Shown here piece by piece: positions 15,695 through 31,904 of a stretch of 35,923 bases of DNA (position 1 is the stretch's first letter; each line of letters opens with the position of its first letter). Below the pieces are notes generated by a model. The model saw only the letters and a list, made by a program, of their open reading frames with translations, was not told the origin of the DNA and ran no database searches. The position numbers and the translations under genes are program-made. Origin of the DNA: a virus; IMG/VR virus record IMGVR_UViG_3300026097_000052, positions 1-35,923 of that record, one strand, 5' to 3'.

Positions 15695-16645
15695 GTGCCA
15701 GATATTAAACTTAGATCTAACAATACTCCAGGAGAAACTCCTACAGGTTTAGAACCTGGAGAATTGGCTATTAATACCAATGACGGAACATTGTTTATTG
15801 GAGATGCAGAAGGAAGCTCAGTCAAAATTGTAGGGACCGCCGGAAAATATCCTGCAAATAATGTATCTATTAATGGTGGATCTATTAATAACACTGCAAT
15901 ACAAACAAGTCCTAGTGTTGCTGCAACTAATTTACAAGTTGCTGGCGGTGAAACATTAACAGGTGTTACCTCTGATTTATCATCAACTAGTAATTCAACT
16001 GTTGCAACATCTGAAGCAGTACAAAATTATGTAAATTCTGCTTCAGGTGCTTTGAAAAACATTTATACATTTACTAGCCCAGGAACTTATACAAAAAGTG
16101 GATCAGATGTTACACAATTAAAAGTTATTGTGGTTGGCGGTGGTGGCGGTGGCCGAGGTTATGGCGAAAGCGGAGGTGCCGGCGGCTACGGCGAACGATG
16201 GATCGATGCTACTAGCATATCAACCGAAAGCGTGACCATTGGCGGCGGCGGTGGTGGTGGTGTATACTTCGGCAACTCGCCCGGCGGTGGTACCACAAGT
16301 TTTGGCGGATATGTAAGTGCTAGCGGTGGTTCTGGGGCAAACAACCAAGGAAGCCATATCGGAGGCCAGGGCGGCATTGGCAGTGATGGAAATTTAAATT
16401 TCTGGGGAGGCGGCGGTGTCGGACACCACAACTGTCACACTGCAAGTTATCACAATCCAGGACATGGAGGCAAAAGTTTCTTCGGTGGAGGACAAGCAGG
16501 ACAACACTACACTCCAAGAACTTCTGCAGAAGCTGCTCCGGGAGCAGGCGGAACTGGTTCGAACTGGTACAATAATGGTGCAAACAATTACGATAGAGGC
16601 CACGACGGGCGTGGCGGTATATGTGTAGTATACGAGTACAAATAA
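15695..16645 (+). CDS. Glycine-rich tail adhesin, copy 1 (316 aa)
   Basis: It starts at GTG 15695 directly after the previous TAA; GGAGGT lies 9-14 nt upstream. Residues 1-50 form a fibre head-type segment (PGELAINTNDGTLFIGDAEG) seen at the N terminus of many phage fibres, and a short repeat region follows to ~120. Residues ~147-316 are a polyglycine-scaffold domain: runs of GGGGGG and GGAGGYGE alternate with variable His/Asn/Ser/Tyr-rich loops, ending in ICVVYEYK. Glycine-rich C-terminal domains of this kind are known in phage adhesins, where packed polyglycine helices hold receptor-contacting loops. It is the first of three tandem paralogues (316, 504, 318 aa). The receptor is unknown. Confidence 0.75.
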   Translation: MPDIKLRSNNTPGETPTGLEPGELAINTNDGTLFIGDAEGSSVKIVGTAGKYPANNVSINGGSINNTAIQTSPSVAATNLQVAGGETLTGVTSDLSSTSNSTVATSEAVQNYVNSASGALKNIYTFTSPGTYTKSGSDVTQLKVIVVGGGGGGRGYGESGGAGGYGERWIDATSISTESVTIGGGGGGGVYFGNSPGGGTTSFGGYVSASGGSGANNQGSHIGGQGGIGSDGNLNFWGGGGVGHHNCHTASYHNPGHGGKSFFGGGQAGQHYTPRTSAEAAPGAGGTGSNWYNNGANNYDRGHDGRGGICVVYEYK

Positions 16646-18166: not shown

Positions 18167-19123
18167 ATGCCAAGTTTTAAATTTAGAAATTCAACAACTC
18201 CAACTTCGCAACCAGCGAATGGAACTTTAACTGAAGGTGAAATTTCTGTAAATATTGCAGATACTAGAGTATTTGAAGGCACAGCATCGAATACTACACA
18301 AAAAATTGTTGATACAGCAGCTGCTCAGGCAGCTAATAATGTTGAATTAACTGGCGGAAGCATCTCAGTTACCAATCTGGGAACTTCAAGTAGTAGTACA
18401 GTGGAAGCTTCTAGTATAACACTAGGCGGAACGGCTATTAATGAAATCTCTGGATATCCAGATAAATCTAGCAGTACAGGTGTCGTAACACAAGATGCAA
18501 TTTTTGGAAGAGTTGAAGAAACCAGTAACAAATTAAAAAATATTTATACATTTACATCACCAGCCACATATACTAAAAGTGGATCAGATGTAAAACGACT
18601 ACATATCTGTGTCTGCGGTGGCGGTGGTGGTGGCCGTGCATACGCTGAATGCGGCGGTGCCGGTGGCTATGCTGAACGAGTTATAGATGCTACAGGAATA
18701 ACAACTGTGAGTGTAACTGTAGGCGGCGGCGGGAGCGGCGGATCATATTTTGGTTTTAGTCCAGGCGGAGGAACCACAAGTTTCGGTAGTTATGTAAGTG
18801 CTACTGGCGGAACAGGTGCAAATGCACACATTCAGCACTGTGGCGGATTAGGCGGTTTAGGCAGCGACGGTGATTTAAACACTCGTGGTGGCGGCGGTGG
18901 CGGCCACAACAATATGGATCAATATTCTAGTAGTTGTGCTCCTGGAGGCCAAGGCGGAATGAGCTTTTTTGGTGGCGGACAACCTGGGGCACACAGTAAC
19001 GGAGCACAGCCGTCGGCTGTAGCAGCTTGGGGTGCTGGCGGTGTAGCTGTTAGTCCTAGTCATAACGGACAAGGTGGAAGAAATGGCAAAGGCGGTATTT
19101 GCATTGTATATGAGTATAAATAA
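18167..19123 (+). CDS. Glycine-rich tail adhesin, copy 3 (318 aa)
   Basis: It starts at ATG 18167 with AAGGT upstream, 6 nt after the previous stop. The head segment is more diverged (GEISVNIADTRVFEGTASNT, 24-43). The middle (~50-145) is a short repeat region leading into KNIYTFTSPATYTKSGSDV, almost identical to the same place in copy 1. The glycine-rich C-terminal domain (~150-318) keeps the GGGGGGRAYAECGGAGGY scaffold and ends in ICIVYEYK, but has different loops (for example NNMDQYSSSCAPGG). An extra pair of cysteines (HICVCGGG and AECGG) is peculiar to this copy. It is probably an alternative or companion receptor-binding tip. Confidence 0.75.
   Translation: MPSFKFRNSTTPTSQPANGTLTEGEISVNIADTRVFEGTASNTTQKIVDTAAAQAANNVELTGGSISVTNLGTSSSSTVEASSITLGGTAINEISGYPDKSSSTGVVTQDAIFGRVEETSNKLKNIYTFTSPATYTKSGSDVKRLHICVCGGGGGGRAYAECGGAGGYAERVIDATGITTVSVTVGGGGSGGSYFGFSPGGGTTSFGSYVSATGGTGANAHIQHCGGLGGLGSDGDLNTRGGGGGGHNNMDQYSSSCAPGGQGGMSFFGGGQPGAHSNGAQPSAVAAWGAGGVAVSPSHNGQGGRNGKGGICIVYEYK
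19115..19122 (+). promoter_or_regulatory. Late promoter candidate TATAAATA
   Basis: An exact T4 late consensus overlapping the stop codon of the third adhesin gene, 18 nt before the ATG at 19141. The bases also encode the final Tyr-Lys-stop, so the match could be partly coincidental, but the spacing to the next start is the usual one. Confidence 0.5.
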
Positions 19124-19140
19124 TATCACAAGGAACAAAA

Positions 19141-19530
19141 ATGAAAAAAGCGTTAGTTGATAAAAGATTTTGGATGGTTGTACAGATACTCGATGAGAAT
19201 GAATCTGAGTTCGAAGTCACCAAAGATTTTCTTTGGGTATCCTGCCCAGATAGATGTGAAACTGGTTGGGAATATGAGGAATCTACTGGTAATTTTATCG
19301 ATCCCCATAGATTTAGCAGAGACGAATTTGGAAATCCTGTAGAACCATTCATGATGCAGCGTATGCGAGCATACCCTAGCACTGGTGATCAGCTAGATAT
19401 GTTGTTTAAAGAAATTCGCGACACTGGTACAATTTCCAAAGATGGCGAATGGTATTCGTCGGTACAATGGGTTAAGGATAATGTCCCTAAACCAGGTGCT
19501 AAAGGCGATCCAGGAAATCACAGTGAATAA
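19141..19530 (+). CDS. Small conserved phage protein (129 aa), possible fibre accessory
   Basis: It starts at ATG 19141 after AAGGA. The N-terminal half begins with a strand/helix region (KRFWMVVQILDENESEFEV). The second half has MRAYPSTGDQLDMLFKEIRD (~75-94), a motif common at the end of small phage proteins encoded next to tail-fibre genes, and then GEWYSSVQWVKDNVPKPG. Some proteins with this motif are annotated as fibre-assembly chaperones or tail-associated proteins, but that role is not demonstrated by the sequence. It is the last plus-strand gene before the oppositely oriented cassette. Its stop codon (19528-19530) abuts the stop of the convergent oxygenase gene with no spacer. Confidence 0.65.
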   Translation: MKKALVDKRFWMVVQILDENESEFEVTKDFLWVSCPDRCETGWEYEESTGNFIDPHRFSRDEFGNPVEPFMMQRMRAYPSTGDQLDMLFKEIRDTGTISKDGEWYSSVQWVKDNVPKPGAKGDPGNHSE

Positions 19531-20121
19531 TTACCATATACCAAAATTAATTATTACTCGATGACCTGTAGTAGGTCTAGTACTAGCGTGATATATAGAG
19601 CCGTCAAATAAGACGGCTCTTCCTTTTTTAGGTGTTACTCTGTTAATAATTTTTAAGTCTTCTTTTTTTACTTTATCCGGCGGAATATCTCGAAAAGTTT
19701 TATCAAAAAATACAGTATCACCGTCAGAATCTGTTACATAATATAGACAAACAAGATGAGCTACTTCCCTATCAACATGCGGATGATCAATACTGCTTTC
19801 CCTGTTAGCAAGAGGTATTGTTAAAAAACTTCGCATGCCTAATATTTCGTTTAATTTAAATCCAATCTTTTCGCATGCTAAATATGCAATTGGTAAAACT
19901 AATCCATATCCTGGACTAATGACGCCCCGTTCTCTGTCCCAAAATTTGTGAGCAAATGCTGGTTTTGCTTCAGGTAAATCAAATTCGTCAAGTGCCTGTG
20001 CATCGTATGTAACGTCTTGCATGTAATGCCAATTCACATTTTCGCTTAACATTTCTTTTTCGATTAAATCCTCATATTGTTTAGGAATAAAATCATCTAA
20101 AATTACAAAATCATCTATCAT
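19531..20121 (-). CDS. 2OG-Fe(II) oxygenase, canonical HxD type (196 aa)
   Basis: The metal triad of the Fe(II)/2-oxoglutarate oxygenase fold is complete: H115-V-D117, H178, and the 2OG-binding arginine R188 in GHRVIINFGIW. The strand GRAVLFDGSIYH (167-178) places the distal histidine. Such enzymes hydroxylate or otherwise oxidise C-H bonds; the substrate cannot be inferred. It is the last gene of the cassette, 10 nt after the previous stop, with AAGG before its ATG. Its 3' end abuts the stop of the convergent plus-strand gene. Codons for residues ~168-176 also form a strong hairpin that looks like a terminator for the opposite strand. Confidence 0.85.
   Translation of the reverse strand: MIDDFVILDDFIPKQYEDLIEKEMLSENVNWHYMQDVTYDAQALDEFDLPEAKPAFAHKFWDRERGVISPGYGLVLPIAYLACEKIGFKLNEILGMRSFLTIPLANRESSIDHPHVDREVAHLVCLYYVTDSDGDTVFFDKTFRDIPPDKVKKEDLKIINRVTPKKGRAVLFDGSIYHASTRPTTGHRVIINFGIW
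19597..19629 (+). terminator. Rho-independent terminator inside an antisense gene
   Basis: AGAGCCGTC (19597-19605) and GACGGCTCT (19612-19620) pair perfectly over 9 bp with a six-base loop and are followed on the plus strand by TCCTTTTTT. The T-tract is only on the plus-strand side, so it would stop transcripts from the structural module about 70-100 nt after the 129-aa gene. It lies entirely within the coding sequence of the minus-strand oxygenase. Confidence 0.8.
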
Positions 20122-20131
20122 GGTGTTACCT

Positions 20132-20713
20132 TTAAATACAATCTCCGTTAAAACTAATTACAATTCTTGGTTTGTTGCTAAAATAATTGTCAGCATCATG
20201 AAGTATACAGCTGGGAAATAATATTAATCTCCCAGGAACAAATGATGCAGTAAATTTATCATCTGCAAACTCTAATCCTGATTTTCTTTCTATGTAATAA
20301 GGGAGATACCAACTATTCAATCCTTTAGAATTTTCGTCGCAATCAACATAAAAAATGCCACTCCATGTGGAATTATGATGATAGTGTGGACGATGAAATC
20401 CGTTTGTTCTAGTTATATGACACCAACTTTCTGTAATTGCAAATTTGTAGTTTGAATTATTTAATTGGTTTACTAAGGTTTCGGTTTCTTGTTGTATCCA
20501 TAATTTTAATTCAACTAATTTTTGATTTTTTTCTAAAAAATCAAAAGAAGATTCCCATAACCCTTCTTTTGCATTAATTGCTATATTTGATTCTATGGTA
20601 TTTGGTTTTTCATTTACTAGGCAAAAATCAATAATAGTTTCTTTATATTGATTAAATTCTTCCCAGTCTGAAATCAATAATGGAATTTTGCCTAGTTGTA
20701 CTTCTTGTCTCAT
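20132..20713 (-). CDS. 2OG-Fe(II) oxygenase-like protein, HxH type (193 aa)
   Basis: The core follows the pattern of the phage/bacterial family of putative 2OG-Fe(II) oxygenases (Pfam 2OG-FeII_Oxy_5-like): RPHYHHNSTWSGIFYVD (108-124), then VPGRLILFPSCILHDA (159-174), then KPRIVISFN (181-189). H110, H112 and H113 cluster at the first metal site, H172 is the distal histidine and R183 is the likely 2OG arginine. There is no HxD/E; the residue two after H112 is N114. The N-terminal ~95 residues are helical. It overlaps the preceding 249-aa gene by 4 nt. The substrate is unknown. Confidence 0.75.
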   Translation of the reverse strand: MRQEVQLGKIPLLISDWEEFNQYKETIIDFCLVNEKPNTIESNIAINAKEGLWESSFDFLEKNQKLVELKLWIQQETETLVNQLNNSNYKFAITESWCHITRTNGFHRPHYHHNSTWSGIFYVDCDENSKGLNSWYLPYYIERKSGLEFADDKFTASFVPGRLILFPSCILHDADNYFSNKPRIVISFNGDCI

Positions 20714-21459
20714 TCGTTTATATCTAAATCTTGCCTGTGTAGTTGATATTCTGGCGTATCTTTAATAAACTTACGCCAGCCAAATCTTGATAATTTTTTT
20801 AAATTTAATATGTTCTTCATTCTTTTTTGATCAGTCAAACTAAAGGATTTACTCAATCCATTTATATTTTCTCTCTTAAATGGTATTATTTGAACTAGAG
20901 GATCACCTAGTTTTATTAAAGTTTTTTTAGGTTTAAATAACATTAAATTAATTGGATTTTGATTTAAATTTACGTCAGTTTCTAATATAGCAGGAAGAGC
21001 TTGATAATTTACATTATTATGAAAAATAGGAATCCACATACAACTATAGTTTGATGCAGTATGAATGTGCCAGGGACTATTTAACTTTACGTCTAACCTT
21101 ACTTCGAATTGATCACCTATAATTGATTGGAATTGATCTTGCGTATGTATTTCATGGCCGTAATCTGAATTACTATACTTCATAGTAATGCTATCATCTT
21201 GAAAATCTATTTCAATATCGCACCATGCTGGTAATATATAGCCTGTTGTTAATAAATTGTTTATAGCAGGACAATTTTTTGCTGTTAAATTTGAAAATAT
21301 TTTATCAGTGTCAAACGGACAAATCTTTCCAGTTGGAAGATCTTTAAACGATTGAGGAATATATTCACTTGCTGGTAGTATTGGCGCATGTGTCCTAATT
21401 GCCCAATCATGACAAGAAAAAGTTATAATAGGTTGTTTTTTTGAAAAAAAACTAGTCAT
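20710..21459 (-). CDS. DUF6065-like protein (249 aa)
   Basis: No catalytic motif is recognised. The sequence resembles proteins grouped as DUF6065, recalled from memory: NCPAINNLLTTGYILPAWCD (62-81), SPWHIHTASNYSCMWIPIF (128-146), LETDVNLNQNPINLMLFKP (159-177) and LGDPLVQIIPFKRE (184-197). These suggest a mostly beta, cupin- or jelly-roll-like core. Phage relatives usually have a similar GxPLxQxIPFKR ending to the core. The 234-aa protein at 26671 shares the same order of blocks. It overlaps the upstream halogenase by 8 nt, so it is probably translated with it. A role supporting the halogenases or oxygenases is only a guess from position. Confidence 0.65.
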   Translation of the reverse strand: MTSFFSKKQPIITFSCHDWAIRTHAPILPASEYIPQSFKDLPTGKICPFDTDKIFSNLTAKNCPAINNLLTTGYILPAWCDIEIDFQDDSITMKYSNSDYGHEIHTQDQFQSIIGDQFEVRLDVKLNSPWHIHTASNYSCMWIPIFHNNVNYQALPAILETDVNLNQNPINLMLFKPKKTLIKLGDPLVQIIPFKRENINGLSKSFSLTDQKRMKNILNLKKLSRFGWRKFIKDTPEYQLHRQDLDINE

Positions 21460-23044
21460 TATAAAATTTATTCTTTAAAAATTCATACAAAGTAGGAGCA
21501 GAATCTACAAAATCTTTTCGATTTTTCAACAGTAGATCCCATAAAGGAAAACAATTCTCCTGTAAATGATTTAAGTAATCATAACTATTGTGTCTAAAAA
21601 ACTGTCTTTTTACATACGATTCATTCATCGGTAAAAAATTCATGCCTGCAGACACACACAGCATTCCGCCCATATCGTTACTGTAATTAGATTCTACATA
21701 TCTTCTATAAATTAAATTATCAATTCCAAACGAACTGTAGATTCCAGTTTGCATAGTTTTTGGATAGTGTTTATTTCTTAAATGTTTCCAATATTCTGTG
21801 TCTTTTCTGTGACTTAATGCATAATGTAGTGCAACAAATTCAGCAAAAGCCTTAAAATCTCCTCTACAAGATTCATTAAATGCAAGTCTGTCAAATTCTG
21901 TAACTTCACCCCTACTTAAGGCTAAACATAAATTTAATAAAAACTCATGCACAGTGTATAGTCCGTTTGATTCTAAAGGTTCAATAAATCCAGCACTAAG
22001 CCCAATAGCACATACATTTTTATTATAAATTTGTTTATGTATTCCTACACGCATTTTAATATTTTTAAATTCTAAAGAATCGACTAACTCTTTAGATTTT
22101 TTATGCGGTCTGTTGTTAATTAAATAATTTTTAAATTGTGATAATGCCTCATCGTCGGAGATAAATTTATCACTATACACATATCCAGTTCCGATTCTGC
22201 TCCATAACGGAATGTTCCAAACCCAACCATTTTCTATAGCTGTACAATTTGTATAAGGTTCTAGTTCTTTTTCTTTATCTTCATATGGGATTCTTGTTGC
22301 CCACGCACTGTTATTAGGAAGGAGATCTTCATAGCTTTCAAATTCCGTTTGAAGAGTTTGTGCTAACAATAAAGATTTAAATCCAGTACAGTCTATAAAC
22401 AGGTCCGCAAATACCTTTTCTCCGTTGTTTAACACAAGATAATCTATACCTTGATCTGATGATTGAATATCAGCCACTGTATCTTGAATTAATTTCACAC
22501 CACGAGGAATAGCATAGTTATTTTTTAACCAGTGTCCAAATTTTGTAGCATCAAAATGATATGCTACATCTCTATCAAAACACCAACCTGCTAGTTCATT
22601 GTTTTTGTTATCGATGATTTTATTTTGTTCAGATAGTGTAACTGCTGGAAAAAATGTTTCTGCAAAATTGGAATTGTCTAGATTAGAATCTAATGATTTT
22701 CTTATAAACCAATCAGACACGCCATTTGGAAAATGCACATTGTCAAAACTTGGATTCCCAAAAGGATAGTGAAATCCTCCACTATTTTCTTTATAAAAAT
22801 CTGTAAATTTAATACTTAACTTATAACTTGCATCGCAGTGAGACATCCAGTCTTCATCTTTAATATCTAATGAATGTAACCATTCGTTGATTTGACCAAT
22901 AGTGCTTTCGCCAACGCCTACAATAGGAACATCTGGACTTTCTATAACAGTAATAGATTTATCTGGAAAATTTTTGATCAAAGTAGCCGCACTCATCCAT
23001 CCAGCACTGCCGCCACCTACTACAACAATGTTATCAATGTTCAT
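21452..23044 (-). CDS. Flavin-dependent tryptophan-halogenase-family protein, copy 1 (530 aa)
   Basis: This has the family hallmarks: the FAD-binding G10-G-G-S-A-G15, GVGES (43-47), the catalytic-type lysine K75 in SYKLSIKF, WVWNIP (274-279) exactly matching the WxWxIP motif, and EPLESNG (355-361), where E358 and S359 correspond to PrnA E346 and S347. Enzymes of this family use FADH2, O2 and halide to make hypohalous acid, which the lysine delivers to an aromatic substrate. Of the three copies here, this one keeps the most key residues. Its length is normal for the family. The start ATG at 23044 has AAAAGGAATCTAA upstream. The substrate need not be free tryptophan: the marine cyanophage halogenase VirX1 acts on many small aromatics and prefers iodide. 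Confidence 0.88.
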   Translation of the reverse strand: MNIDNIVVVGGGSAGWMSAATLIKNFPDKSITVIESPDVPIVGVGESTIGQINEWLHSLDIKDEDWMSHCDASYKLSIKFTDFYKENSGGFHYPFGNPSFDNVHFPNGVSDWFIRKSLDSNLDNSNFAETFFPAVTLSEQNKIIDNKNNELAGWCFDRDVAYHFDATKFGHWLKNNYAIPRGVKLIQDTVADIQSSDQGIDYLVLNNGEKVFADLFIDCTGFKSLLLAQTLQTEFESYEDLLPNNSAWATRIPYEDKEKELEPYTNCTAIENGWVWNIPLWSRIGTGYVYSDKFISDDEALSQFKNYLINNRPHKKSKELVDSLEFKNIKMRVGIHKQIYNKNVCAIGLSAGFIEPLESNGLYTVHEFLLNLCLALSRGEVTEFDRLAFNESCRGDFKAFAEFVALHYALSHRKDTEYWKHLRNKHYPKTMQTGIYSSFGIDNLIYRRYVESNYSNDMGGMLCVSAGMNFLPMNESYVKRQFFRHNSYDYLNHLQENCFPLWDLLLKNRKDFVDSAPTLYEFLKNKFYND

Positions 23045-23078
23045 TTAGATTCCTTTTTTGCTTTATGTAATTATCAGA

Positions 23079-23729
23079 TTAATCTTTTAGAAATAGGTTT
23101 CCTGAAATAGAAATTCTGTTTTTATCGGATGTAAAAAATGGATAGACTAAGTGCTTTATTTTAGAAGGGAAAAAAATAACAGTTCCTTCATGACTCGTTT
23201 CTGGAAAAAATGGCAGAGATTGTATATCTCCTAAAATATTTGTAAAAACGAAATTAAAACTAGTTGCTACAGGGTTATTAGAAACAGATACATGTGATTG
23301 TTCCATTTCTTCTGATAAATCATAAGGAATATCAATCCACGAAACAAAACTGAATACTCCTCGATGATCATGTAACGGATTATACTCATGTTTTTTTTGA
23401 AAATTAATCCAAATTTTTTCTAAACAAAATGATAAAGGCTTTTCAAAAGAATGATTTTGATATATTTCTTGATCGTAGTTCCACGATGTTATATATTGAA
23501 CAGCCATCTCTAACAAATACGGCTCAATATTTTTTTGTGATTTTTCTAAATATACTTGAGTTTCGAGATGTCCTGCTAAATTTTTAAAAATTTTTTCTTT
23601 TTTATCGATGTTTTTTTTAATATGTTGAATTTCTTCTTTAAGGATAGACACTGTATCTTCTGGAAATTTTGATATAGAATATCCATAGTTAGGAAAATTT
23701 TTTTGCTCTATCAAAAAATCATTATTCAT
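23079..23729 (-). CDS. 2OG-Fe(II) oxygenase-like protein, HxH type (216 aa)
   Basis: The C-terminal half follows the 2OG-FeII_Oxy_5-like pattern: NPLHDHRGVFSFVSWIDI (117-134) with H120-D-H122, TVIFFPSKIKHLVYPF (183-198) with distal H193, and R205 in KNRISISGN. G124, not Asp or Glu, occupies the position two after H122. The N-terminal ~75 residues are lysine-rich and helical (KKNIDKKEKIF). It lies between halogenases 1 and 2, overlapping the latter by 8 nt and separated from the former by 34 nt, the longest gap in the cassette. It may therefore work with these halogenases, though no direct sign of a shared substrate exists. Confidence 0.72.
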   Translation of the reverse strand: MNNDFLIEQKNFPNYGYSISKFPEDTVSILKEEIQHIKKNIDKKEKIFKNLAGHLETQVYLEKSQKNIEPYLLEMAVQYITSWNYDQEIYQNHSFEKPLSFCLEKIWINFQKKHEYNPLHDHRGVFSFVSWIDIPYDLSEEMEQSHVSVSNNPVATSFNFVFTNILGDIQSLPFFPETSHEGTVIFFPSKIKHLVYPFFTSDKNRISISGNLFLKD

Positions 23730-25212
23730 TGTCGAAACTTATTTTAGTGAAAGCATTCCGAGACTTTAACATCTCTAATGATTCTCTATGGGTGTACAAT
23801 GTTTGTTCTTGAGTATATTTTTTAAGATCTTCATGACTAGCATTCGATGCGTAAATTATATCGTTGTTTAAAAGATTGAATGTAGATTTTAATTTAGTTC
23901 TATCGAACATGTTTAGACCATGCATAACCATAATCCAATTAATTTGTTTAAATAATAACCATGGTTCAGGAAAGAATATTGGACTAGGCATTGTGCTTTT
24001 AAACAAATCTAAGGTCTCTTTGTTAAACTCTGTTAGTTTTAAATCTTTACAAGATTTCCAAAAATCTGTGTCTCTTCTTTTGGTAATGTAATGTATCTGT
24101 ACAAAATCTATAATATTTTTTGATACTTTATCAAATTCTTTATTATATGTTTCGACAGTTTTTAAATTATTTCGGTCATAAGTTAAGATATGATTCGCTA
24201 AACTTATTGCTTGAACAATAGATGTTCCTATACTGCTTGCTTCTAAAGGCTCAACAAAACTTCCAGAAAGTCCTACAGATACACAATTTTTAACCCAAAA
24301 TTTATCTACATACCCTGCTGTAAATTTAATTTTCTTTCCTATCTCTATAGGATCTGCAAACACAGATTGTGCTTCGGCTATTGCTTGATCTTCTGTAATA
24401 AAATTATCATTATAAACATATCCGTTTCCATAACGATTCTGAGTAGGAATTCTCCACATCCATCCTGAACTCATAGCAGTGCTAATTGTATGGCTTGGAA
24501 TTTCTTCAGTTTTCTCTGTAGGAAATGCAATTGCACTATTCATAGGAAGATACTCGCCACAATCTATCCATTTAACTCCTAATTTTGAGGAAATAACTCG
24601 TTTAAATCCGCTACAATCTATATATAAATCTGAACTAAATTCTCTACCATCATTGCTAATAATTTTATCTACAAAACCATCATTATCAATTACTACATTT
24701 TCAATGACAGCATCGATAATTTTTATGTTTTTTTCTTTACATTTCTTAATTAGAAATTCATTCAATTTATGTGTATTAAAATGAAATTGATATACTGACG
24801 ATTCTAATGGTTCTAAATGCAGAGATTTGTGTATATTAACTGGTACTAAATCGTGATGTGTTTTTCCTTCAGATATTAATCCTTGATAAGATAACGGAAA
24901 TCCACTTCTACTAGGTTTTGTATAAGCATCATGTATACTGTGCATATAATAATCATTGTCGCCGTTCCAATTTACAAATTTAATGCCTGTTTTATATGTT
25001 GCATCTGTTTCATTAACTAATTCATTTACAGAGATACCGCATATAGACATGAATTCAGACCAATGCTCTGTACTACCTTCTCCAACACCTATAATACCTA
25101 TATCGGAAGATTTAACTATAGTTACATCTAATTTTTGATATAGAGATTTTAGTATTAGTGCAGATACAAGTCCAGCCGTTCCTCCGCCTAACACTAATGC
25201 AGATTTAATCAT
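23722..25212 (-). CDS. Flavin-dependent tryptophan-halogenase-family protein, copy 2 (496 aa)
   Basis: It has FAD-binding G9-G-G-T-A-G14, GVGEG (42-46), the catalytic-type lysine K74 in ATYKTGIKFVNW, an exact WxWxIP motif as WMWRIP (251-256), and EPLEASS (321-327). E324 matches PrnA E346, but the following serine is replaced by A325, and the T-G pair near the chloride site of PrnA is S326-S327. The enzyme should still form and position hypohalous acid if reduced flavin is available, though the substitutions could alter halide choice or substrate handling. The RRDTDFWK segment near residues 380-387 also occurs in similar form in both other copies. It overlaps its neighbours by 8 nt on each side. 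Confidence 0.85.
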   Translation of the reverse strand: MIKSALVLGGGTAGLVSALILKSLYQKLDVTIVKSSDIGIIGVGEGSTEHWSEFMSICGISVNELVNETDATYKTGIKFVNWNGDNDYYMHSIHDAYTKPSRSGFPLSYQGLISEGKTHHDLVPVNIHKSLHLEPLESSVYQFHFNTHKLNEFLIKKCKEKNIKIIDAVIENVVIDNDGFVDKIISNDGREFSSDLYIDCSGFKRVISSKLGVKWIDCGEYLPMNSAIAFPTEKTEEIPSHTISTAMSSGWMWRIPTQNRYGNGYVYNDNFITEDQAIAEAQSVFADPIEIGKKIKFTAGYVDKFWVKNCVSVGLSGSFVEPLEASSIGTSIVQAISLANHILTYDRNNLKTVETYNKEFDKVSKNIIDFVQIHYITKRRDTDFWKSCKDLKLTEFNKETLDLFKSTMPSPIFFPEPWLLFKQINWIMVMHGLNMFDRTKLKSTFNLLNNDIIYASNASHEDLKKYTQEQTLYTHRESLEMLKSRNAFTKISFDNE

Positions 25213-26683
25213 AAAGTTTCTTCCAATGTGTGTAATCTAAACAGTTATTTGCAACGGTGTTTGCAATAACATTTAATCTTTCATACTCTTCTTTTACATA
25301 TTTTAATATGTTAGAATTTTTATTATTTAATAATTTAATTAGTTGTTTATTATTTGTTAAACTATAGTGTTGTATTAAAACAGAATAATTTTCTAAAGAA
25401 TATGTTGACATATTTATTTTATCAAAATAACTATTTTTCCAATTTTCTAGCTTTTCTTGTAATGAATCAGTTTTAACATATTCACCATGTTGATGTGCTT
25501 TCCAAAAATCTGTATCATTTCTTTTACATTGATAGTGAGTTAAAATAAAATCTATAGTATCGTCTAAAAGTTTTTGGTATTCTGCATTGTATACTTTTCT
25601 ACAATTTTCTGAGAACATGTTAAGATCCCAGTGTTCAGACAACAATTTCAATTGTAGAGCAATTAATGTATGTCCCGGGGATCCTAATGGTTCTAAAAAT
25701 CCACTGCTTAATCCAATTGCCAAAACATTGTTAACCCACGGAGTTTCAGTTACTGAATTCTCCCAAGTTAGTTTAGCTATTGGTTCTATTTCTTTTCCTA
25801 TTGCAATTTCAATTTCTTTTTTAATATCGTCGGGAGATGCAAAATTATTATCATAAACATAGCCGTTTCCGCTTCTTCCTGATAAACTAACATTAAATCT
25901 CCATCCATTGTTCATAGAAGTAATTTCTGTATACGGATAATGATCCGAATCGTCCCACCAAGCTAATACTGAATTAGTAGGTATATACCTTTCATAATTT
26001 TTAAACTCTACACCCAAAGATTTTCTTAAGATTTTTTGTTGGAAACCAGTACAATCAAAATAAAAATCGTATGTTTTAGAAAAATTTTCAAAATTTAACT
26101 TAGATATACCAAATTTATCAAATTCACATGATAATAGTTTTGATTCAAGTAATTTTATTTCTCTATTCAAACCTTCTGTTTTAAAAAAATCTGCATTTTT
26201 TCTACTATCAAAATGATACATTGGGCTAACAGCTAAGGAATCAGCAGTAAGTGGAGTTAAATTTCTCTCTATTAAAATTCCAGAGATTGCGGTTTTATAT
26301 ATAGGAAGTTCTAATGCAATCATTCCTTTTAAAAAATCGTTATTATCGCCTAATTCGGGATGATCAAAAAGCCATTTATTAAGATAGGTTGAAAACTGTG
26401 GTTGAATATAAAAATCGTTATTTCCATTCCAATTAATAAATTTTCCACCTAATTTGGGAATAGCTTTAACATACGAAATCCATTTTAAAAAATCTATACC
26501 GAGAAATTCTAACAAATTTACAAACGGCGAAGTACAACTTTCTCCCGCGATTATTGGAAGAGAATCCGGGTCTTCAATTACGGTAATATCTAAATTTGGA
26601 TAGTTTTTCTGCAAAAAAAGAGCTGTAAGCCAGCCTGCACTTCCGCCGCCGACAACTGCTACATTTTTTATTACTTCATCCAT
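25205..26683 (-). CDS. Divergent tryptophan-halogenase homologue, copy 3 (492 aa)
   Basis: The FAD-binding G12-G-G-S-A-G17 and the lysine K77 (IPKLGGKFINW) are present, and the full length and the RNDTDFWKAH segment place it in the tryptophan halogenase family. Three hallmarks are altered. WxWxIP reads WRFNVS (261-266). The GVGE loop reads IAGES (45-49). The EPLES motif is EPLGS (331-335), so the glutamate equivalent to PrnA E346 is G334. A flavin monooxygenase with changed chemistry, an inactive partner of the other two, or a halogenase with a different catalytic arrangement are all possible. The gene is intact, with no frameshift, and overlaps both neighbours, so it is not obviously decaying. 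Confidence 0.82.
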   Translation of the reverse strand: MDEVIKNVAVVGGGSAGWLTALFLQKNYPNLDITVIEDPDSLPIIAGESCTSPFVNLLEFLGIDFLKWISYVKAIPKLGGKFINWNGNNDFYIQPQFSTYLNKWLFDHPELGDNNDFLKGMIALELPIYKTAISGILIERNLTPLTADSLAVSPMYHFDSRKNADFFKTEGLNREIKLLESKLLSCEFDKFGISKLNFENFSKTYDFYFDCTGFQQKILRKSLGVEFKNYERYIPTNSVLAWWDDSDHYPYTEITSMNNGWRFNVSLSGRSGNGYVYDNNFASPDDIKKEIEIAIGKEIEPIAKLTWENSVTETPWVNNVLAIGLSSGFLEPLGSPGHTLIALQLKLLSEHWDLNMFSENCRKVYNAEYQKLLDDTIDFILTHYQCKRNDTDFWKAHQHGEYVKTDSLQEKLENWKNSYFDKINMSTYSLENYSVLIQHYSLTNNKQLIKLLNNKNSNILKYVKEEYERLNVIANTVANNCLDYTHWKKLYD

Positions 26684-27375
26684 TTTTTTGGTCTTAATTT
26701 ATTAAAGGTATTATGAATTTTCCAACTTAATCTAGGCATATAATGCTTTAAAGTTAAGCAACTATTAACTGCATGTTCTAATTCATTAGTTCTTTCAATC
26801 TTTTTTAACAAAAATTTATCATTTAAATTTTCTGATCTAAATTTAACATATGCAATCGGTCGTCCTCTTTTTATTTTAACTTTATCCTCTAACATTTCAA
26901 AAGTTGTTACAATAGGCCTCTGCCAAGAATAAATGTTAAATGAGCCAGGAACTAATCTCCAACTATTGTCTATATCATTAAAAGGAGGAATTAATTCTAA
27001 AAATACAGGTTTATCACTGGTAAAAACAAAACTATTGCTTAATGCAACAATTGGTCTTGCTTGCTCGGGATCGAAATCCTGCCAATGAACTCTTATAAAA
27101 GATTCTGACGATTCAAATGGAAGATTGCTGCTTAGTACTTTGTTAGCTTTATCCCATGTTAACTCTATATCTATAGAATTTCTAATTACATATATTTCTT
27201 TTACATACTGCGTGAAAGCTGGACATTTATGATATCTAGACGACGAATTATCCCAAGTATCTAATCTTTCTAATTCAAAATGAGCAAGATCAAACCATCC
27301 AAAATAATTTAAAGCAGTATTAGTGGTATTTTGATTTTTTTCTTGCCAAGGACAATATCCTATTTTAGTTCTCAT
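26671..27375 (-). CDS. DUF6065-like protein, diverged relative (234 aa)
   Basis: The sequence has the same order of blocks as the 249-aa protein at 20710: KCPAFTQYVKEIYVIRNSID (50-69), FVFTSDKPVFLELIPPF (116-132), LVPGSFNIYSWQRPIVTTFE (141-160) and IKRGRPIAYVKFRSE (168-182). Overall identity is low, but the spacing of beta-strand blocks and the final G-x-P-[IL]-[AV] turn agree. It begins with a short W- and N-rich stretch and ends in a basic tail (FNKLRPKKWMK). No catalytic residues are recognised. The gene overlaps halogenase copy 3 by 13 nt and the small Cys4 gene by 11 nt. It is most likely an accessory or binding protein in the same pathway; the function is unknown. Confidence 0.6.
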   Translation of the reverse strand: MRTKIGYCPWQEKNQNTTNTALNYFGWFDLAHFELERLDTWDNSSSRYHKCPAFTQYVKEIYVIRNSIDIELTWDKANKVLSSNLPFESSESFIRVHWQDFDPEQARPIVALSNSFVFTSDKPVFLELIPPFNDIDNSWRLVPGSFNIYSWQRPIVTTFEMLEDKVKIKRGRPIAYVKFRSENLNDKFLLKKIERTNELEHAVNSCLTLKHYMPRLSWKIHNTFNKLRPKKWMK

Positions 27376-27580
27376 AATTTGCAGACCAAAAACCTAACGG
27401 ACACATCATACCTTTTTGACGAAGTTTTCCAGTAAGAGGCTCACCATTAACCTGACAGATATCTTCTCCAGGTTTTTTTGCATAGCAATCGTTGCAAATT
27501 TTTTCTCGTTGCTCGAATACTTCTTGTTTAACTAACAAAAGTCTTTCGTCAAAATGCGTTAATCTAGGTTTTTCTTTCAT
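27365..27580 (-). CDS. Small four-cysteine (zinc-ribbon-like) protein (71 aa)
   Basis: Four cysteines, C29-x2-C32, C42 and C60, in KICNDCYAKKPGEDICQ and MMCPLGFW suggest a single bound zinc or possibly an Fe-S centre. The N-terminal 28 residues are a charged helix. At 71 residues it is too small for an enzyme, so it may mediate protein contacts or, if Fe-S, electron transfer. Similar tiny Cys4 proteins are seen beside 2OG oxygenase genes in marine T4-like phages (from general knowledge). It overlaps both neighbours (17 and 11 nt), so it is a genuine member of the operon. Confidence 0.65.
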   Translation of the reverse strand: MKEKPRLTHFDERLLLVKQEVFEQREKICNDCYAKKPGEDICQVNGEPLTGKLRQKGMMCPLGFWSANYEN

Positions 27581-28298
27581 TGGTTAAGTTCCTTTTTAAA
27601 TCTTCAATGATAAATTCTTGAGTTAAAATTTTATTCTGAAGATGTTCAACTTCGCTGGATACATGTTTATGCAAACTAGTATCGGGATAATCGGTGTTGG
27701 ATTTTAAATATTTTCCAGAATATTTTATGTTAAAAGACATTACAATTCTATTTGTATCAGAACAATTTTCTTCTGTACGATGTCTAATCCATCCAGGAAA
27801 TAATAATAAATCACCAGATTTTACAGAAATTGTGGTTTCAATTTTTTGTTCAATAGGAACAGAATACGGAATATGTGTAATTCCATATTCCATCGGATTA
27901 GTAAAAACAATACCTCCGCTGTTTTTGTCAGCTCGAACATACAGTGTTGCCACCATTGGCATTAAACTATGTGAATGCAATACCGTAAATCCTTCATTGC
28001 CGTGGATATTGGCCCAACATTCGTCGATTTCTGGAGAAAGTCTAGAATCAATATCTAGAATCTTCCAATATAGATTTGCATGATTTATAACTTGTTCAGA
28101 TATCTTTTTAGAAAAAGGTTCTAAGTGTAGACTTGAATTATACCCATATGTACTTTTTGCGTTTTGTTTTTCTAATGGCGATTCTACATTATTAAATTTA
28201 TTAAATTCAGACAGTAAATGAGACTCTATTGATGATAAATCAATATTGTCTTTTAAGTTTATTAAATAAATTGGTAAAGAAAATAAATTATGAATCAT
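27564..28298 (-). CDS. 2OG-Fe(II) oxygenase-like protein, HxH type, with C-terminal helix (244 aa)
   Basis: The core has GFTVLHSHSLMPMVATLYV (103-121) with H108-S-H110, GDLLLFPGWIRHRTEE (162-177) with H173, and TNRIVMSFNIKYSG (182-195) with R184. This matches the 2OG-FeII_Oxy_5-like family. No carboxylate stands two residues after either histidine of the HSH cluster (H110 and L112). Unlike its relatives here, it continues for about 50 residues after the core with a charged helical segment (VEHLQNKILTQEFIIEDLKR), which could form a coiled coil. It overlaps the 207-aa gene by 11 nt and the Cys4 gene by 17 nt. The substrate is unknown. Confidence 0.75.
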   Translation of the reverse strand: MIHNLFSLPIYLINLKDNIDLSSIESHLLSEFNKFNNVESPLEKQNAKSTYGYNSSLHLEPFSKKISEQVINHANLYWKILDIDSRLSPEIDECWANIHGNEGFTVLHSHSLMPMVATLYVRADKNSGGIVFTNPMEYGITHIPYSVPIEQKIETTISVKSGDLLLFPGWIRHRTEENCSDTNRIVMSFNIKYSGKYLKSNTDYPDTSLHKHVSSEVEHLQNKILTQEFIIEDLKRNLTNERKT

Positions 28299-28911
28299 TA
28301 TCTTTAATTTCTAATACATCCGGGTTCTGTTCTAAATACCACTTTTTATTTACAAATGTTTTATAAGATATGTAGTGTCTTAATTTTTTACATTCTCGAT
28401 TAGGAGCCAATCCTCTATGAGGAATATTACTATCAAAAACTAAACAGGTATTTGGCATTGGGTAGTATGTGGCAATAACATTCCCGTAATCGTCAAAAAA
28501 TTGAAATTCACCTCCCCATTCTGGATTCCATTCTTTATTAGGGAAGAAACATAAGGTCATAAATCCGTCACCCATTTCGTTAAATTCAACATCTTTATCA
28601 GTATGAACACCGCCGTCTAATCCAAAAGTTTTTCCACCTGCAATGGCTGAATATAGTTTAAAACTATATTTCTCTGTTTCCGGAGCAGTTTCATTTAATT
28701 TTTCTAAGATGTCATAAAAAATTCGTTCGCTTGCCCACGGTGTCAAAGTTAAATCAGCCATCCAAAATACATTAGAATCTTCATCCCAAAGATCCGGATT
28801 TGTAACTCTCCCAAATTGCCAAATTGGTTTTTCTAACTCGCTACAAGCATTTGCAAAAATATCTTCTCTTACTACATTGTCAAGAAAATAAATTTCTCTA
28901 GGTCGACTCAT
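28288..28911 (-). CDS. 2OG-Fe(II) oxygenase, prolyl-4-hydroxylase-like HxD type (207 aa)
   Basis: It has a complete canonical triad: H103-T-D105 in GGVHTDKD, distal H165 in SNIPHRGLAP, and R178 in KKLRHYISYK for 2OG. The strand NPEWGGEFQFFDDYGN between them is typical of the prolyl-4-hydroxylase-like group (Pfam 2OG-FeII_Oxy_3 and relatives). It probably hydroxylates a peptide or small molecule; nothing in the sequence identifies the substrate. The start ATG at 28911 has a good AAGGAG site and an AATAAATA late-promoter match 24 nt upstream within the previous gene, so an internal promoter may boost expression from here on. Confidence 0.82.
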   Translation of the reverse strand: MSRPREIYFLDNVVREDIFANACSELEKPIWQFGRVTNPDLWDEDSNVFWMADLTLTPWASERIFYDILEKLNETAPETEKYSFKLYSAIAGGKTFGLDGGVHTDKDVEFNEMGDGFMTLCFFPNKEWNPEWGGEFQFFDDYGNVIATYYPMPNTCLVFDSNIPHRGLAPNRECKKLRHYISYKTFVNKKWYLEQNPDVLEIKDNDS

Positions 28912-28912
28912 T

Positions 28913-29548
28913 CTAATCTCCTTGTTCCTTGACGATATTTATTAGTTTTTCAGGGTCTTCACGCCAGTCATGATCAGACCAATTTGAAAAATTCCATTTT
29001 TCTGCTTCTGCATTCGACAATAACTCTTCGTGCTCATCAAATTTATTATTGTCATATTCCCCATTTTTTCTTACATAATGAAAAAATGTTTGATGTTGAA
29101 AGTCTTGCCCTAGCATTGGGTGTCTCATATGCGAAGCCAGTGATCCTTGATATACCAATGCATCACCTATGTCTAAAATAATTTCTTCAAATTCGTAATT
29201 ATTTTTTTGAATATATATAGGCCATATAAATTTTTCATAGTCTAAAGTAATTGTTAAACTTATTTCTGCACCAGGCCTATCTAAATGCGGAGGCATAAAT
29301 TCTTTTTCTTGATAAATTCTAGCATAGGTATAACTTGGCCAAATATCTTCCTCGATCTCTTTTTCAACTTTGGAGCGATATATTTCTAATTCGTCATTAA
29401 AAATTCCGTAGAATGCTGGACTTTTTGGACATAACGGATCAGGAGCACGATATATTCCTTTTAATAGAAGACTTTCTAATTTTCTAGCCATTAAATCACA
29501 ATCTTCTTTAGGAATAAAATTTCTTATAATTTTGTAAAGTTCCTTCAT
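28913..29548 (-). CDS. 2OG-Fe(II) oxygenase-like protein, HLDRP type (211 aa)
   Basis: It carries FMPPHLDRPGAEISLTITLD (84-103) with H88-L-D90, then LDIGDALVYQGSLASHMRHP (125-144), with H140 the likely distal histidine and H143 a possible alternative, and finally FFHYVRKNGEYD. The HxDRP...EIS...GDA arrangement is characteristic of a group of phage oxygenase-fold proteins. In place of the usual conserved arginine near the end, the QTFFHYVRKNG strand supplies R160, which may bind 2OG. It starts with a helical segment containing NFIPKEDCDLMARKLE, common to hydroxylases of this type. It overlaps the preceding 191-aa gene by 4 nt. Confidence 0.78.
   Translation of the reverse strand: MKELYKIIRNFIPKEDCDLMARKLESLLLKGIYRAPDPLCPKSPAFYGIFNDELEIYRSKVEKEIEEDIWPSYTYARIYQEKEFMPPHLDRPGAEISLTITLDYEKFIWPIYIQKNNYEFEEIILDIGDALVYQGSLASHMRHPMLGQDFQHQTFFHYVRKNGEYDNNKFDEHEELLSNAEAEKWNFSNWSDHDWREDPEKLINIVKEQGD
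28936..28943 (-). promoter_or_regulatory. Internal late promoter candidate AATAAATA
   Basis: On the minus strand AATAAATA (read 28943 to 28936) matches NATAAATA and lies 24 nt before the ATG at 28911, a spacing like that of the other candidates. It is embedded in the 3' end of the 211-aa oxygenase gene. In such AT-rich DNA a chance match is possible. Confidence 0.35.
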
Positions 29549-30120
29549 CGTTCTATCCTTACATTAAATGTAACGCTTATTCTTTCATTGTCTGTTGTAT
29601 TATGATAAACAGCATGTTCTAAAAATCCAGGAAATAATATTAACTTGCCTACTTCTGGTTTATAAAAAATACTTGAATCTATTTTTGATGTTAATACATG
29701 AAATCTATTAACCAAAGATGGATTTTTTAGTACTAGATCTCCGTCATCACCGCAAGTTTGATAATAATATACTCCGGAGAGATCGAAATCGTCATGGATG
29801 TGAAAATGCTGGAAATCTAATTTTTTAGAAATATTAATCCAGGATTCTTTGATATAAAAATTATTTGTTATGTTATATGCCTGTAAAAAATTTTTACAAT
29901 GAGTTTTTATAATATCATTAAACTTCGGAGTAGATAATAAAATTTGATCATACTCTCCATATTTAAAAGTTGTAGATACTGTATCTCCCCAAGGATTTAA
30001 TAATTTGTGTTCATTTAAATGTTTTAAATAGTTAAATATTTCTGTTTGAGAAACTAGTAGATCATCGTCTTTTAAAAGATCATAGTAAATTGGAGTAGGA
30101 AAAAAATATTCAACTGGCAT
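29545..30120 (-). CDS. 2OG-Fe(II) oxygenase-like protein, HxHxD type (191 aa)
   Basis: The core reads FHIHDDFDLSGVYYYQ (106-121), GKLILFPGFLEHAVYHN (158-174) and NERISVTFNVR (178-188): H107-I-H109, D111, distal H169 and R180. Alone among the HxH group here, it also has a carboxylate two residues after the second histidine (H109-x-D111), so a normal His-Asp-His triad is possible. The N terminus (MPVEYFFPTPIYYD) has the FPTPIY-type strand that begins many members of this family. It overlaps the 203-aa gene by one base (TAATG) and the next gene by 4 nt. Confidence 0.8.
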   Translation of the reverse strand: MPVEYFFPTPIYYDLLKDDDLLVSQTEIFNYLKHLNEHKLLNPWGDTVSTTFKYGEYDQILLSTPKFNDIIKTHCKNFLQAYNITNNFYIKESWINISKKLDFQHFHIHDDFDLSGVYYYQTCGDDGDLVLKNPSLVNRFHVLTSKIDSSIFYKPEVGKLILFPGFLEHAVYHNTTDNERISVTFNVRIER

Positions 30121-30731
30121 TATTTTTTCTCTATAGCCAAGTTAAATGGAATACTTATTTTTAAATAATTTTTCTTGTGAGCATTATATCCATGAAATAC
30201 ACTAGATTTGAACATAATTAATCTACCTGGCTTGCAATCATATTTGACTAAATCTAGATTCAATAAATTAGCTTGCGGTGCTTTAACTGGTTCGTAATAA
30301 TCTCTATATGGAGATCCTATTTCTAAAAATGATCCTTCTGGAGCATCAATATAAAAAACACCGCTTAATGCTGCCCTTCCGATAGTATTATGAGTATGTA
30401 ACGCATGATAATCATTTTCTGATATAAAATTAATCCATAAATTAGTAAATAAAAAATCTTTTTTATCTAGTAAGCCATATCCTAAAGATTCTGCAAAACA
30501 AACAGCATGGCTTAAAATCATTTCTTTGATACTATTAAACTGTGTGTTTTTATATAGATGACCGTATTCTTCATGCCAGAATGTTGTGTCTAATCTACTT
30601 TCTCCGAAGGGATGCGGATCGTGGTATGTTTTTAACATAATGTCGTGACATGTGTCTTTATACGATATTAATTCATCTACTAAGTTGTCATCGGAATAAT
30701 ATATTGATGTAGGAAACCATGTATCAATCAT
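30120..30731 (-). CDS. 2OG-Fe(II) oxygenase-like protein, HxH type, Lys for Arg (203 aa)
   Basis: It starts MIDTWFPTSIYY, the family's usual N-terminal strand. The core has YHALHTHNTIGRAALSGVF (108-126) with H112-T-H114, CKPGRLIMFKSSVFHGY (166-182) with H180, and YLKISIPFNLAI (189-200). The loop after the HxH is longer than in its relatives. The residue aligned with the 2OG-binding arginine (NERISVTFN in the 191-aa protein) is K191, and the FP pair of the LILFP strand is FK. These changes may weaken 2OG binding or alter cofactor use. It lies one base after the preceding gene's stop. Confidence 0.75.
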   Translation of the reverse strand: MIDTWFPTSIYYSDDNLVDELISYKDTCHDIMLKTYHDPHPFGESRLDTTFWHEEYGHLYKNTQFNSIKEMILSHAVCFAESLGYGLLDKKDFLFTNLWINFISENDYHALHTHNTIGRAALSGVFYIDAPEGSFLEIGSPYRDYYEPVKAPQANLLNLDLVKYDCKPGRLIMFKSSVFHGYNAHKKNYLKISIPFNLAIEKK

Positions 30732-30732
30732 T

Positions 30733-31317
30733 TTATTTAAATCTCGGACCGTTAATCCAAGATACTAGACTTTTTCTAGTACCTTTTGTAACAGGAGTTA
30801 CTTCATGTATTACAAAACTGGGAAATATAATCATGGTTCCTTTTTCTTTAGGTGCAATTACTGGTTCATAAATTGTATTTCTATAAAAGTGTAATTCTCC
30901 ACCTTGATATTCGTCAGGGTCAGATAATTGAATACTTATACTTAATTTACGAAATAAATTTACATCATATCCATCGTCGCTGTGTGCTTTATACCTGCCT
31001 TGATTTTCATCTTTATATTCAGCATACTGCATGATTTCTAAGTCCAATATATGAAATTTATAGAATTGGTCATTTAATGCTGATGCGATATTAGAAATTT
31101 TTTCATAAATTTGTGTAGATTCGTCAGTAACTGGAATCCAAGTTATATCGCTTTCTCTATAATTTTCATCTATTATTCCTTTATCTAATTCACCTTTTCC
31201 TGATTTTTGATCTTTACATAGAGATTCAACTAATATTAATTCTTCATCTGTAAAAATATTTTTTGCATACGCAAATGGTTCGTGTGTATAATGTTGATCT
31301 TTAATTAACCAAGTCAT
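30733..31317 (-). CDS. 2OG-Fe(II) oxygenase, PKHD-hydroxylase-like HxD type (194 aa)
   Basis: The triad is canonical: H112-S-D114 in YKAHSDDGYD, H171 in FPSFVIHEVTPVTKG, and R181 in TRKSLVSWINGP. The LSISIQLSDPDEYQGGELHF strand pair (125-144) and the ending SWINGPRFK are typical of PKHD-type hydroxylases (Pfam 2OG-FeII_Oxy_3 group). A beta-strand-rich N-terminal half precedes the core, with no signal peptide. It overlaps the first cassette gene by 17 nt. The substrate is unknown; relatives include peptide and small-molecule hydroxylases. Confidence 0.84.
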   Translation of the reverse strand: MTWLIKDQHYTHEPFAYAKNIFTDEELILVESLCKDQKSGKGELDKGIIDENYRESDITWIPVTDESTQIYEKISNIASALNDQFYKFHILDLEIMQYAEYKDENQGRYKAHSDDGYDVNLFRKLSISIQLSDPDEYQGGELHFYRNTIYEPVIAPKEKGTMIIFPSFVIHEVTPVTKGTRKSLVSWINGPRFK

Positions 31318-31897
31318 AATTTGTACCTATTGTATCAAAACTAATAATATATCTTAAATCCGCTGTGTTATTAACAGTGTAATGCATTAACCAACTCGGA
31401 AAAATTATCAACATGCCTTCAACAACACCAAGTTCAAAGTTTTGTCTATTGTATTCTGTTTGAAATTCGCTTATTTCATTAACTTTAAAAGGATTACATG
31501 GATTATCCACAGCAAATACTCCACCATCGCCATATATTTTAGGATAAAAAACACCACTAATAAGACTCATTTCGTGTCTATGTGATCGAATATGCCCAGC
31601 TTTTCGATATACATTACACCAACTATATGAAATTTTACATGATAATAATCCTGTAGTACTAGTATAATCATCTATACATTTTTGAATACACCCTTGTAGA
31701 TTAGGTAATTTTTTTAAAAAAAAGTTAGATTTGCTTCTATCACCGTTTTCTATTAATCCATTTTTAATTTTAGATTCATTATCTATAAGGGCAGGTATCT
31801 TAGTAAATTCTTCAGTGTTATAATCATGTAAGTCGTATGTCTTTACTAAAACTGGAAATAAACTATGATTTATTTTTGAAAAATTATCCATAGTCAT
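31301..31897 (-). CDS. 2OG-Fe(II) oxygenase-like protein, HxH type, first cassette gene (198 aa)
   Basis: The core reads GHIRSHRHEMSLISGVFY (101-118), VEGMLIIFPSWLMHYTVNN (159-177) and LRYIISFDTIG (181-191): H106-R-H108, H172 and R182. M110, not Asp or Glu, stands two residues after H108. Two starts are possible. The ATG at 31897 overlaps a TATAAATA element and has no ribosome-binding site. The ATG at 31891 (protein beginning MDNFSK) falls where transcription from that element would be expected to begin, so the message could be leaderless. It is the most upstream gene of the cassette. Confidence 0.77.
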   Translation of the reverse strand: MTMDNFSKINHSLFPVLVKTYDLHDYNTEEFTKIPALIDNESKIKNGLIENGDRSKSNFFLKKLPNLQGCIQKCIDDYTSTTGLLSCKISYSWCNVYRKAGHIRSHRHEMSLISGVFYPKIYGDGGVFAVDNPCNPFKVNEISEFQTEYNRQNFELGVVEGMLIIFPSWLMHYTVNNTADLRYIISFDTIGTNYDLVN

Positions 31898-31904
31898 ATT
31901 TATA
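31897..31904 (-). promoter_or_regulatory. Cassette late promoter candidate TATAAATA
   Basis: Read on the minus strand (31904 to 31897) this is an exact T4 late consensus. It overlaps the first ATG of the cassette. If it sits at -13 to -6, the transcript would start at 31891, the A of the second in-frame ATG. Confidence 0.45.

Follow-up and report, generated by a model that had tools for sequence, protein, structure and literature searches.

Genes of the cassette and the facing fiber region

IMG/VR virus record IMGVR_UViG_3300026097_000052 (35.9 kb; 35,923 nt; hereafter the window, meaning the whole stretch that was analyzed) is possibly a fragment. Between positions 19,531 and 31,897 it carries a cassette of 16 open reading frames (ORFs) on the minus strand (g1 to g16; 71-530 amino acids), neighbors of which mostly overlap by a few bases or leave short gaps. 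The encoded products comprise three flavin-dependent halogenases, ten 2-oxoglutarate (2OG)-oxygenase-like proteins, two DUF6065-like proteins and one Cys4 protein. The cassette faces two long tail fibers, three paralogous glycine-rich fiber-tip proteins and a small PHROG 1787 protein, and on its other side lies a gp9-like baseplate protein. The kind of genes and their site are known from other phages; for the strictness with which a halogenase was found to be tied to one type of fiber-tip adhesin, no earlier report was found. An initial annotation, made from the letters of the window alone, had described a 16-gene minus-strand run with three halogenases inside a phage structural region, and both descriptions were confirmed by the ORF calls, by the Pfam matches of g10, g11 and g13 and by the fiber, tip and baseplate genes on the flanks.

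The two long tail-fiber proteins (fiber 1, 1,856-7,432, and its paralog fiber 2, 7,463-15,070; plus strand) are 41% identical and contain CBM_5_12 modules. Three paralogous tip adhesins, 52-54% alike, follow on the same strand: adhesin 1 (15,695-16,645) and adhesin 2 (16,646-18,160), both of PHROG 863, and adhesin 3 (18,167-19,123), which matched Pfam Gly_rich_2 (PF21722) at 32 bits against a cut-off of 24.3. The structural model of adhesin 3 had a predicted local distance difference test score (pLDDT) of 78 overall, with values of 90-97 across much of the tip domain, and a predicted template modeling (TM) score of 0.60. Although no PDB match to the adhesin was obtained by sequence search, the best Foldseek match of the model was the fiber of cyanophage Pam3 (chains 7ypx/7yfw; E 1.9e-8, probability 1.00), at TM scores of 0.48/0.59 that make the topology approximate. 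The glycine-rich domain of the Pam3 fiber has been proposed as a receptor binder (PMC9608196), and adhesins 1-3 are predicted to be receptor-binding tips. They share a glycine-rich distal domain with Pam3 gp24 and with gp38 of Salmonella phage S16, the latter being absent among the listed matches of the adhesin model; unlike the window, neither phage is described as having a halogenase or 2OG cassette in the literature found.

All three halogenases matched Pfam PF04820 (Trp_halogenase; E 1e-69 to 5e-106, 236-356 bits against a cut-off of 21). The complete set of GxGxxG, catalytic lysine, WxWxIP and catalytic glutamate was found in g13 (21,452-23,044) and in g11 (23,722-25,212), while the divergent g10 (25,205-26,683) retains the catalytic lysine and glutamate, has WRFNVS in place of WxWxIP and may perform other chemistry. 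The best PDB match of g13 was VirX1 of cyanophage Syn10 (6QGM; E 5e-112), which has the same motifs. Phylogenetic analysis placed g13 alongside Syn9/Syn10-type sequences in an essentially all-virus clade of 55 rows (Shimodaira-Hasegawa-like approximate likelihood ratio support, 99), one of them labeled as a bacterial metagenome-assembled genome (MAG). A halogenase of this clade, 51% identical, was seen at position 7,980 of locus L117, an 84-kb contig labeled as a Deltaproteobacteria MAG that may be viral. In the same tree g10 and g11 fell into a second all-phage group (P-SSM2/S-H38-like in the case of g11) with lower support (84), each being nearest to a gene of locus L090; an IMG/VR scan with g10 found no relatives. 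Because no flavin reductase gene (PF01613) was found in the window, as the initial annotation had stated, or in 15 related phage records, flavin reduced by the host is assumed to serve the halogenases.

Linkage of the halogenase to one adhesin type

IMG/VR was searched with the adhesin alone (query A5), and the best 80 of 140 matches yielded 76 loci. A halogenase adjoined the adhesins in 73 of these, the remaining three contigs stopping at the adhesin; where at least 2 kb of sequence followed, it was present in every locus (71/71), at a median distance of 619 bp. A sister adhesin subtype from Syn33, approximately 49% identical over 142 residues in the one pair compared, served as the control query. 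No halogenase was found at any of its 51 loci (0/45 with at least 2 kb following), and 2OG genes lay downstream in 38 of them. This contrast was kept in non-redundant sets, with 50 linked versus 19 unlinked groups at 90% identity and 26 versus 4 at 70%. Linked adhesins occurred mostly in threes, the unlinked ones singly, and in all eight complete isolate genomes with at least two strong PHROG 863 copies a halogenase came directly after them.

The halogenase remains with the adhesins across wide divergence. The linkage also persists through inversion of the cassette, which in the window and in loci L197-L209 occupies the strand opposite to that of the Syn10/P-TIM40 type. In L215, L224, L232, L251 and L264, five loci where the sequence continues for at least 5 kb, the halogenase adjoins the adhesins and no 2OG gene is present. 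Given this loss and the 71/71 retention, the gene content indicates that the halogenase is the constant partner of the adhesin and that those for 2OG and DUF6065 proteins are accessory. Other phage halogenases, too, adjoin other glycine-rich fiber-like proteins: overall, among 46 non-redundant phage loci with a halogenase, 28 had a glycine-rich protein of this general kind within 5 kb, compared with none of 58 bacterial halogenase loci. In phage S-SRM01 (locus L106, 4,854-9,462) a halogenase sits between a tail-fiber gene and a gene annotated as a gp37-gp38 adhesin tip complex, and no 2OG gene is annotated in that 15-kb stretch.

The gene set itself is not new, since halogenase/2OG cassettes are already present at this site in sequenced Kyanoviridae, namely Syn9, Syn10, S-RIM44, P-RSM6, P-TIM40, S-CREM1, S-WAM1, S-SZBM1 and Sf-FP1. 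In these isolates a long fiber is followed by glycine-rich proteins labeled "tail fiber assembly", then by a small protein (PHROG 1787-like) and one or two halogenases, after which come, often behind a DUF6065-like gene, several 2OG genes; in Syn10, the source of VirX1, two halogenases come after the glycine-rich tips, with DUF6065-like and 2OG genes behind them. The window shares with them the site after the tips and the small protein as well as a VirX1-clade halogenase, but its halogenases number three, the divergent g10 among them, and lie on the other strand, whereas the Kyanoviridae carry theirs on the fiber strand. The region has been termed a host recognition cluster (PMC7029224), and in cyanophage papers its halogenase and 2OG genes are treated as metabolic, with antibiotic protection, nitrogen signaling or DNA repair as proposed roles (PMC2984593, PMC3037559, PMC9964418, PMC9602691). 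No report was found in the literature of how strictly the halogenase is tied to an adhesin.

The initial annotation had suggested that the 16 genes form one dedicated system and had proposed a search for a conserved neighborhood. Orthologous runs were found at the same site in L010-L012, L090/L091 and L197-L209, so that the neighborhood is indeed conserved; there is no fixed 16-gene machine, however, as the presence of 2OG and DUF6065 genes varies from locus to locus. Nor are the gene counts exceptional, as had been thought: four or five halogenases are present on other contigs (L201-L206, L221 and L249), and 2OG gene numbers of ten or 24 have been published for cyanophages (PMC9964418, PMC9602691). 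The four halogenases of L201-L206 stand in a row adjoining the adhesins.

A candidate tyrosine and the possible substrate

Tip domains of 132 halogenase-linked and 35 unlinked adhesins were compared, using the numbering of adhesin 3. Glu161 and Tyr194 were the two non-glycine residues invariant in all 132 linked sequences and absent from the 35 unlinked ones, in which position 194 was always Asn (35/35) and position 161 was Ala or Gly. Chemically, a tyrosine makes sense as the target of an electrophilic halogenase, and in the glycine-rich part tryptophan is not conserved. Position 135, occupied by Trp or Tyr in linked adhesins and by Trp in unlinked ones, is a poorer candidate. The candidate tyrosines of the window are Tyr191 of adhesin 1 (codon 16,265-16,267), Tyr383 of adhesin 2 (codon 17,792-17,794) and Tyr194 of adhesin 3 (codon 18,746-18,748). 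Because the linked and unlinked adhesins form sister clades, the contrast at position 194 is a pointer rather than proof.

Of the three targets left open by the initial annotation (a free aromatic metabolite, a host surface molecule or the phage's own fiber proteins), the linkage data favor the last. We put the probability at roughly 0.5 that the halogenase modifies the fiber-tip adhesin, probably at the conserved tyrosine, with the 2OG proteins acting as accessory hydroxylases. Late in infection, during virion assembly, g13 would act on the new fiber tip, using reduced flavin from the host, and would halogenate an aromatic side chain of the adjoining glycine-rich adhesins, Tyr194 of adhesin 3 being the best candidate. 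The products of g10 and g11 and the ten 2OG-like proteins could modify further residues of the three tips or of the long fibers, and the extra modifications would widen the chemistry of the receptor-binding surface. We are slightly more tentative about the wider proposal that marine phages halogenate and hydroxylate their own receptor-binding tips, tuning host recognition beyond the 20 amino acids, and that VirX1-clade proteins are adhesin-maturation enzymes, not auxiliary metabolic genes.

Enzymes that work on peptides provide a partial precedent. SrpI, ChlH and MibH halogenate residues in ribosomal peptides, and ChlH also acts on some proteins (PMC12518702; for SrpI, PMC10286304 and PMC10858898), while VhaA, which acts on vancomycin, a non-ribosomal peptide synthetase (NRPS) product, requires prior hydroxylation of the tyrosine (PMC12615548). 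Their substrates differ in being small precursor or assembly-line peptides, modified mostly at tryptophan, with no viral structural protein among them. No report of fiber halogenation, of a natural VirX1 substrate or of a link between VirX1 and an adhesin was found in the literature. If the adhesin is the substrate, we know of no earlier case in which an enzyme halogenates a viral structural protein, and host choice by ocean phages would gain a new layer. VirX1 is a biotechnologically valued iodinating enzyme, and the linkage offers a testable natural substrate for it. In cyanophages, halogenases and 2OG proteins are usually counted among metabolic genes whose use is unclear; the very strict link of the halogenase to one kind of fiber tip allows a specific and cheap test on existing isolates.

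Several points weigh against the adhesin as substrate. Query A5 came from loci that carry a halogenase, and of its 140 matches only the best 80 were used; shared ancestry inflates every linkage count; and linkage by itself names no substrate. At 18 of the 46 phage halogenase loci no glycine-rich protein lay within 5 kb (at L090 only because the contig is cut), among them those of S-B64, S-MbCM6, S-PM2, Syn1, P-SSM2 and HTVC008M, where halogenases are located away from such adhesins, the S-B64 enzyme being a VirX1-clade halogenase distant from that phage's non-linked adhesin. Differences fixed between sister clades, such as Tyr194, may reflect ancestry or structure, and a matching tyrosine was not demonstrable in other glycine-rich proteins, where a crude regular expression gave no clean result. 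Furthermore, the peptide-level halogenases in the literature found target tryptophan or assembly-line tyrosine. Ancestry, the linked-loci query, the use of 80 of 140 matches and the off-adhesin halogenases, together with the receptor-masking alternative considered next, are the reasons why we go no higher than 0.5.

The enzymes might instead alter the host surface or receptor, for example in blocking superinfection, and accompany the adhesin since the two have to match the same receptor. We regard this as unlikely, even though it likewise predicts tight linkage to an adhesin type: the linkage-dependent tyrosine difference is left unexplained, glycosyltransferase and sugar genes were not seen in the window, and flavin-dependent halogenases of this kind act on aromatic rings, which are rare in surface sugars. 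In its favor, the host recognition cluster of pelagimyophages holds glycosyltransferases that have been proposed as modifiers of the host surface (PMC7029224), and in S-SSM7 carbamoyltransferases and sugar-phosphate genes adjoin the halogenase and 2OG genes. Such host-recognition regions are known to be hypervariable (PMC7029224), and adhesins, halogenase and oxygenases could simply be exchanged as one cassette, with the halogenase acting on something else. One ancestral arrangement common to most loci and the presence of DUF6065-like and halogenase genes elsewhere in cyanophage genomes would suit such co-exchange, to which we nevertheless give a little less weight again, given that retention is complete (71/71) and extends over 26 adhesin groups at 70% identity despite inversion and 2OG loss, and that the unlinked subtype also has 2OG genes but no halogenase.

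It seems improbable that the halogenases produce a free halogenated compound, for instance halotryptophan or an antibiotic-like protectant of the infected cell. Homology to tryptophan halogenases, the antibiotic protection proposed for cyanophages (PMC2984593, PMC9964418) and the many small aromatic substrates accepted by VirX1 in assays (PMC8407142) all speak for this explanation, which, however, does not predict a site next to one adhesin type and sits poorly with an essentially virus-only VirX1 clade. No NRPS, polyketide synthase (PKS) or other biosynthetic partner is present in the cassette, in agreement with the initial annotation: none of the 16 genes gave an NRPS or PKS match in Pfam, and no NRPS, PKS or ribosomally synthesized and post-translationally modified peptide cluster was recognized, the single small ORF in the run being that of the Cys4 protein. 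We consider it very improbable that the 2OG proteins serve host takeover, through 2-oxoglutarate/nitrogen signaling or DNA repair as proposed for cyanophages (PMC3037559, PMC2984593), with the halogenases being a separate matter. Consumption of 2-oxoglutarate needs no ten diverse copies in one run, six of which are PF13759 types without the usual HxD/E, and the location beside fiber genes would be left unexplained.

Accessory and flanking genes

The ten 2OG-like proteins had been announced as oxygenase-fold proteins, an assignment that stands on family and motif grounds with one caveat concerning the metal site. Pfam 2OG cut-offs were passed by eight of the ten (g1, g2, g3, g4, g6, g7, g12 and g15). 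Of these, g2 (30,733-31,317) and g6 (28,288-28,911) belong to PF13640 and have HxD in the metal triad, as do g5 (28,913-29,548) and g16 (19,531-20,121). The product of g16 (PHROG 274) was slightly under the cut-off (24.8 versus 27 bits), and that of g5, which had no Pfam match, hit PHROG 2954 at E 7e-36 and has an HxD...H motif. The HxD...H motif of 2OG enzymes is present in members of both PHROGs, so that their labels ("ferrochelatase" for 2954, "DNA endonuclease V" for 274) appear mistaken. In ordinary 2OG enzymes the motif reads HxD/E. The caveat applies to the six PF13759-type proteins, g1 (31,301-31,897), g3 (30,120-30,731), g4 (29,545-30,120), g7 (27,564-28,298), g12 (23,079-23,729) and g15 (20,132-20,713), where HxH is found instead. 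HxH also occurs in 124 of 131 relatives and may point to another kind of metal site or chemistry.

The DUF6065-like proteins are encoded by g14 (20,710-21,459; PHROG 7084) and g9 (26,671-27,375; PHROG 17480). Neither matched a Pfam family alone; the label given in the initial annotation was upheld by 5 of 23 g14 relatives, which match PF19541 (DUF6065), while an IMG/VR scan with g14 found no relatives. The model of g14 (pLDDT 78) resembles dUTPases (Z up to 12.3), and g14 is thus predicted to be a dUTPase-fold protein; its relatives have GVVDTD- and GTPIAQ-like stretches reminiscent of dUTPase motifs. Of 22 complete phage records, five have PHROG 7084, which in each case starts within about 150 bp after a halogenase of the cassette type. 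A part for the DUF6065-like proteins in flavin supply was considered and dropped, with no evidence in its favor. The Cys4 protein is encoded by g8 (27,365-27,580; PHROG 13558). The PHROG 1787 protein (19,141-19,530, plus strand), usually directly 3′ of the adhesins, had no PDB match by sequence search and is, from its position, a possible fiber chaperone; roles for all these proteins are guesses. PADLOC, run on six cassette proteins, gave no defense-family match.

The far flank of the cassette is formed by the gp9-like baseplate wedge/tail-fiber connector (31,965-34,427, plus strand). The G+C content is approximately 29-31% in the 16-gene run and 35-44% in the fiber genes on its left, the higher value being due to glycine codons. 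A sigma-70 promoter scan was near chance level, and the late-promoter word TATAAATA, with 3 occurrences in the window against 7 expected, was without statistical support. Late-promoter-like words (TATAAATA/ATAAATA) are located at or just upstream of gene starts: that at 31,897-31,904 (minus strand; TATAAATA) overlaps the start codon of g1, and those at 15,067, 19,115 and 31,932 lie 24-33 bp upstream of 15,091, 19,141 and 31,965. In the haloarchaeal virus HRTV-11 (locus L092), a DUF6065-like gene is found about 1.4 kb from adhesin and tail-fiber genes.

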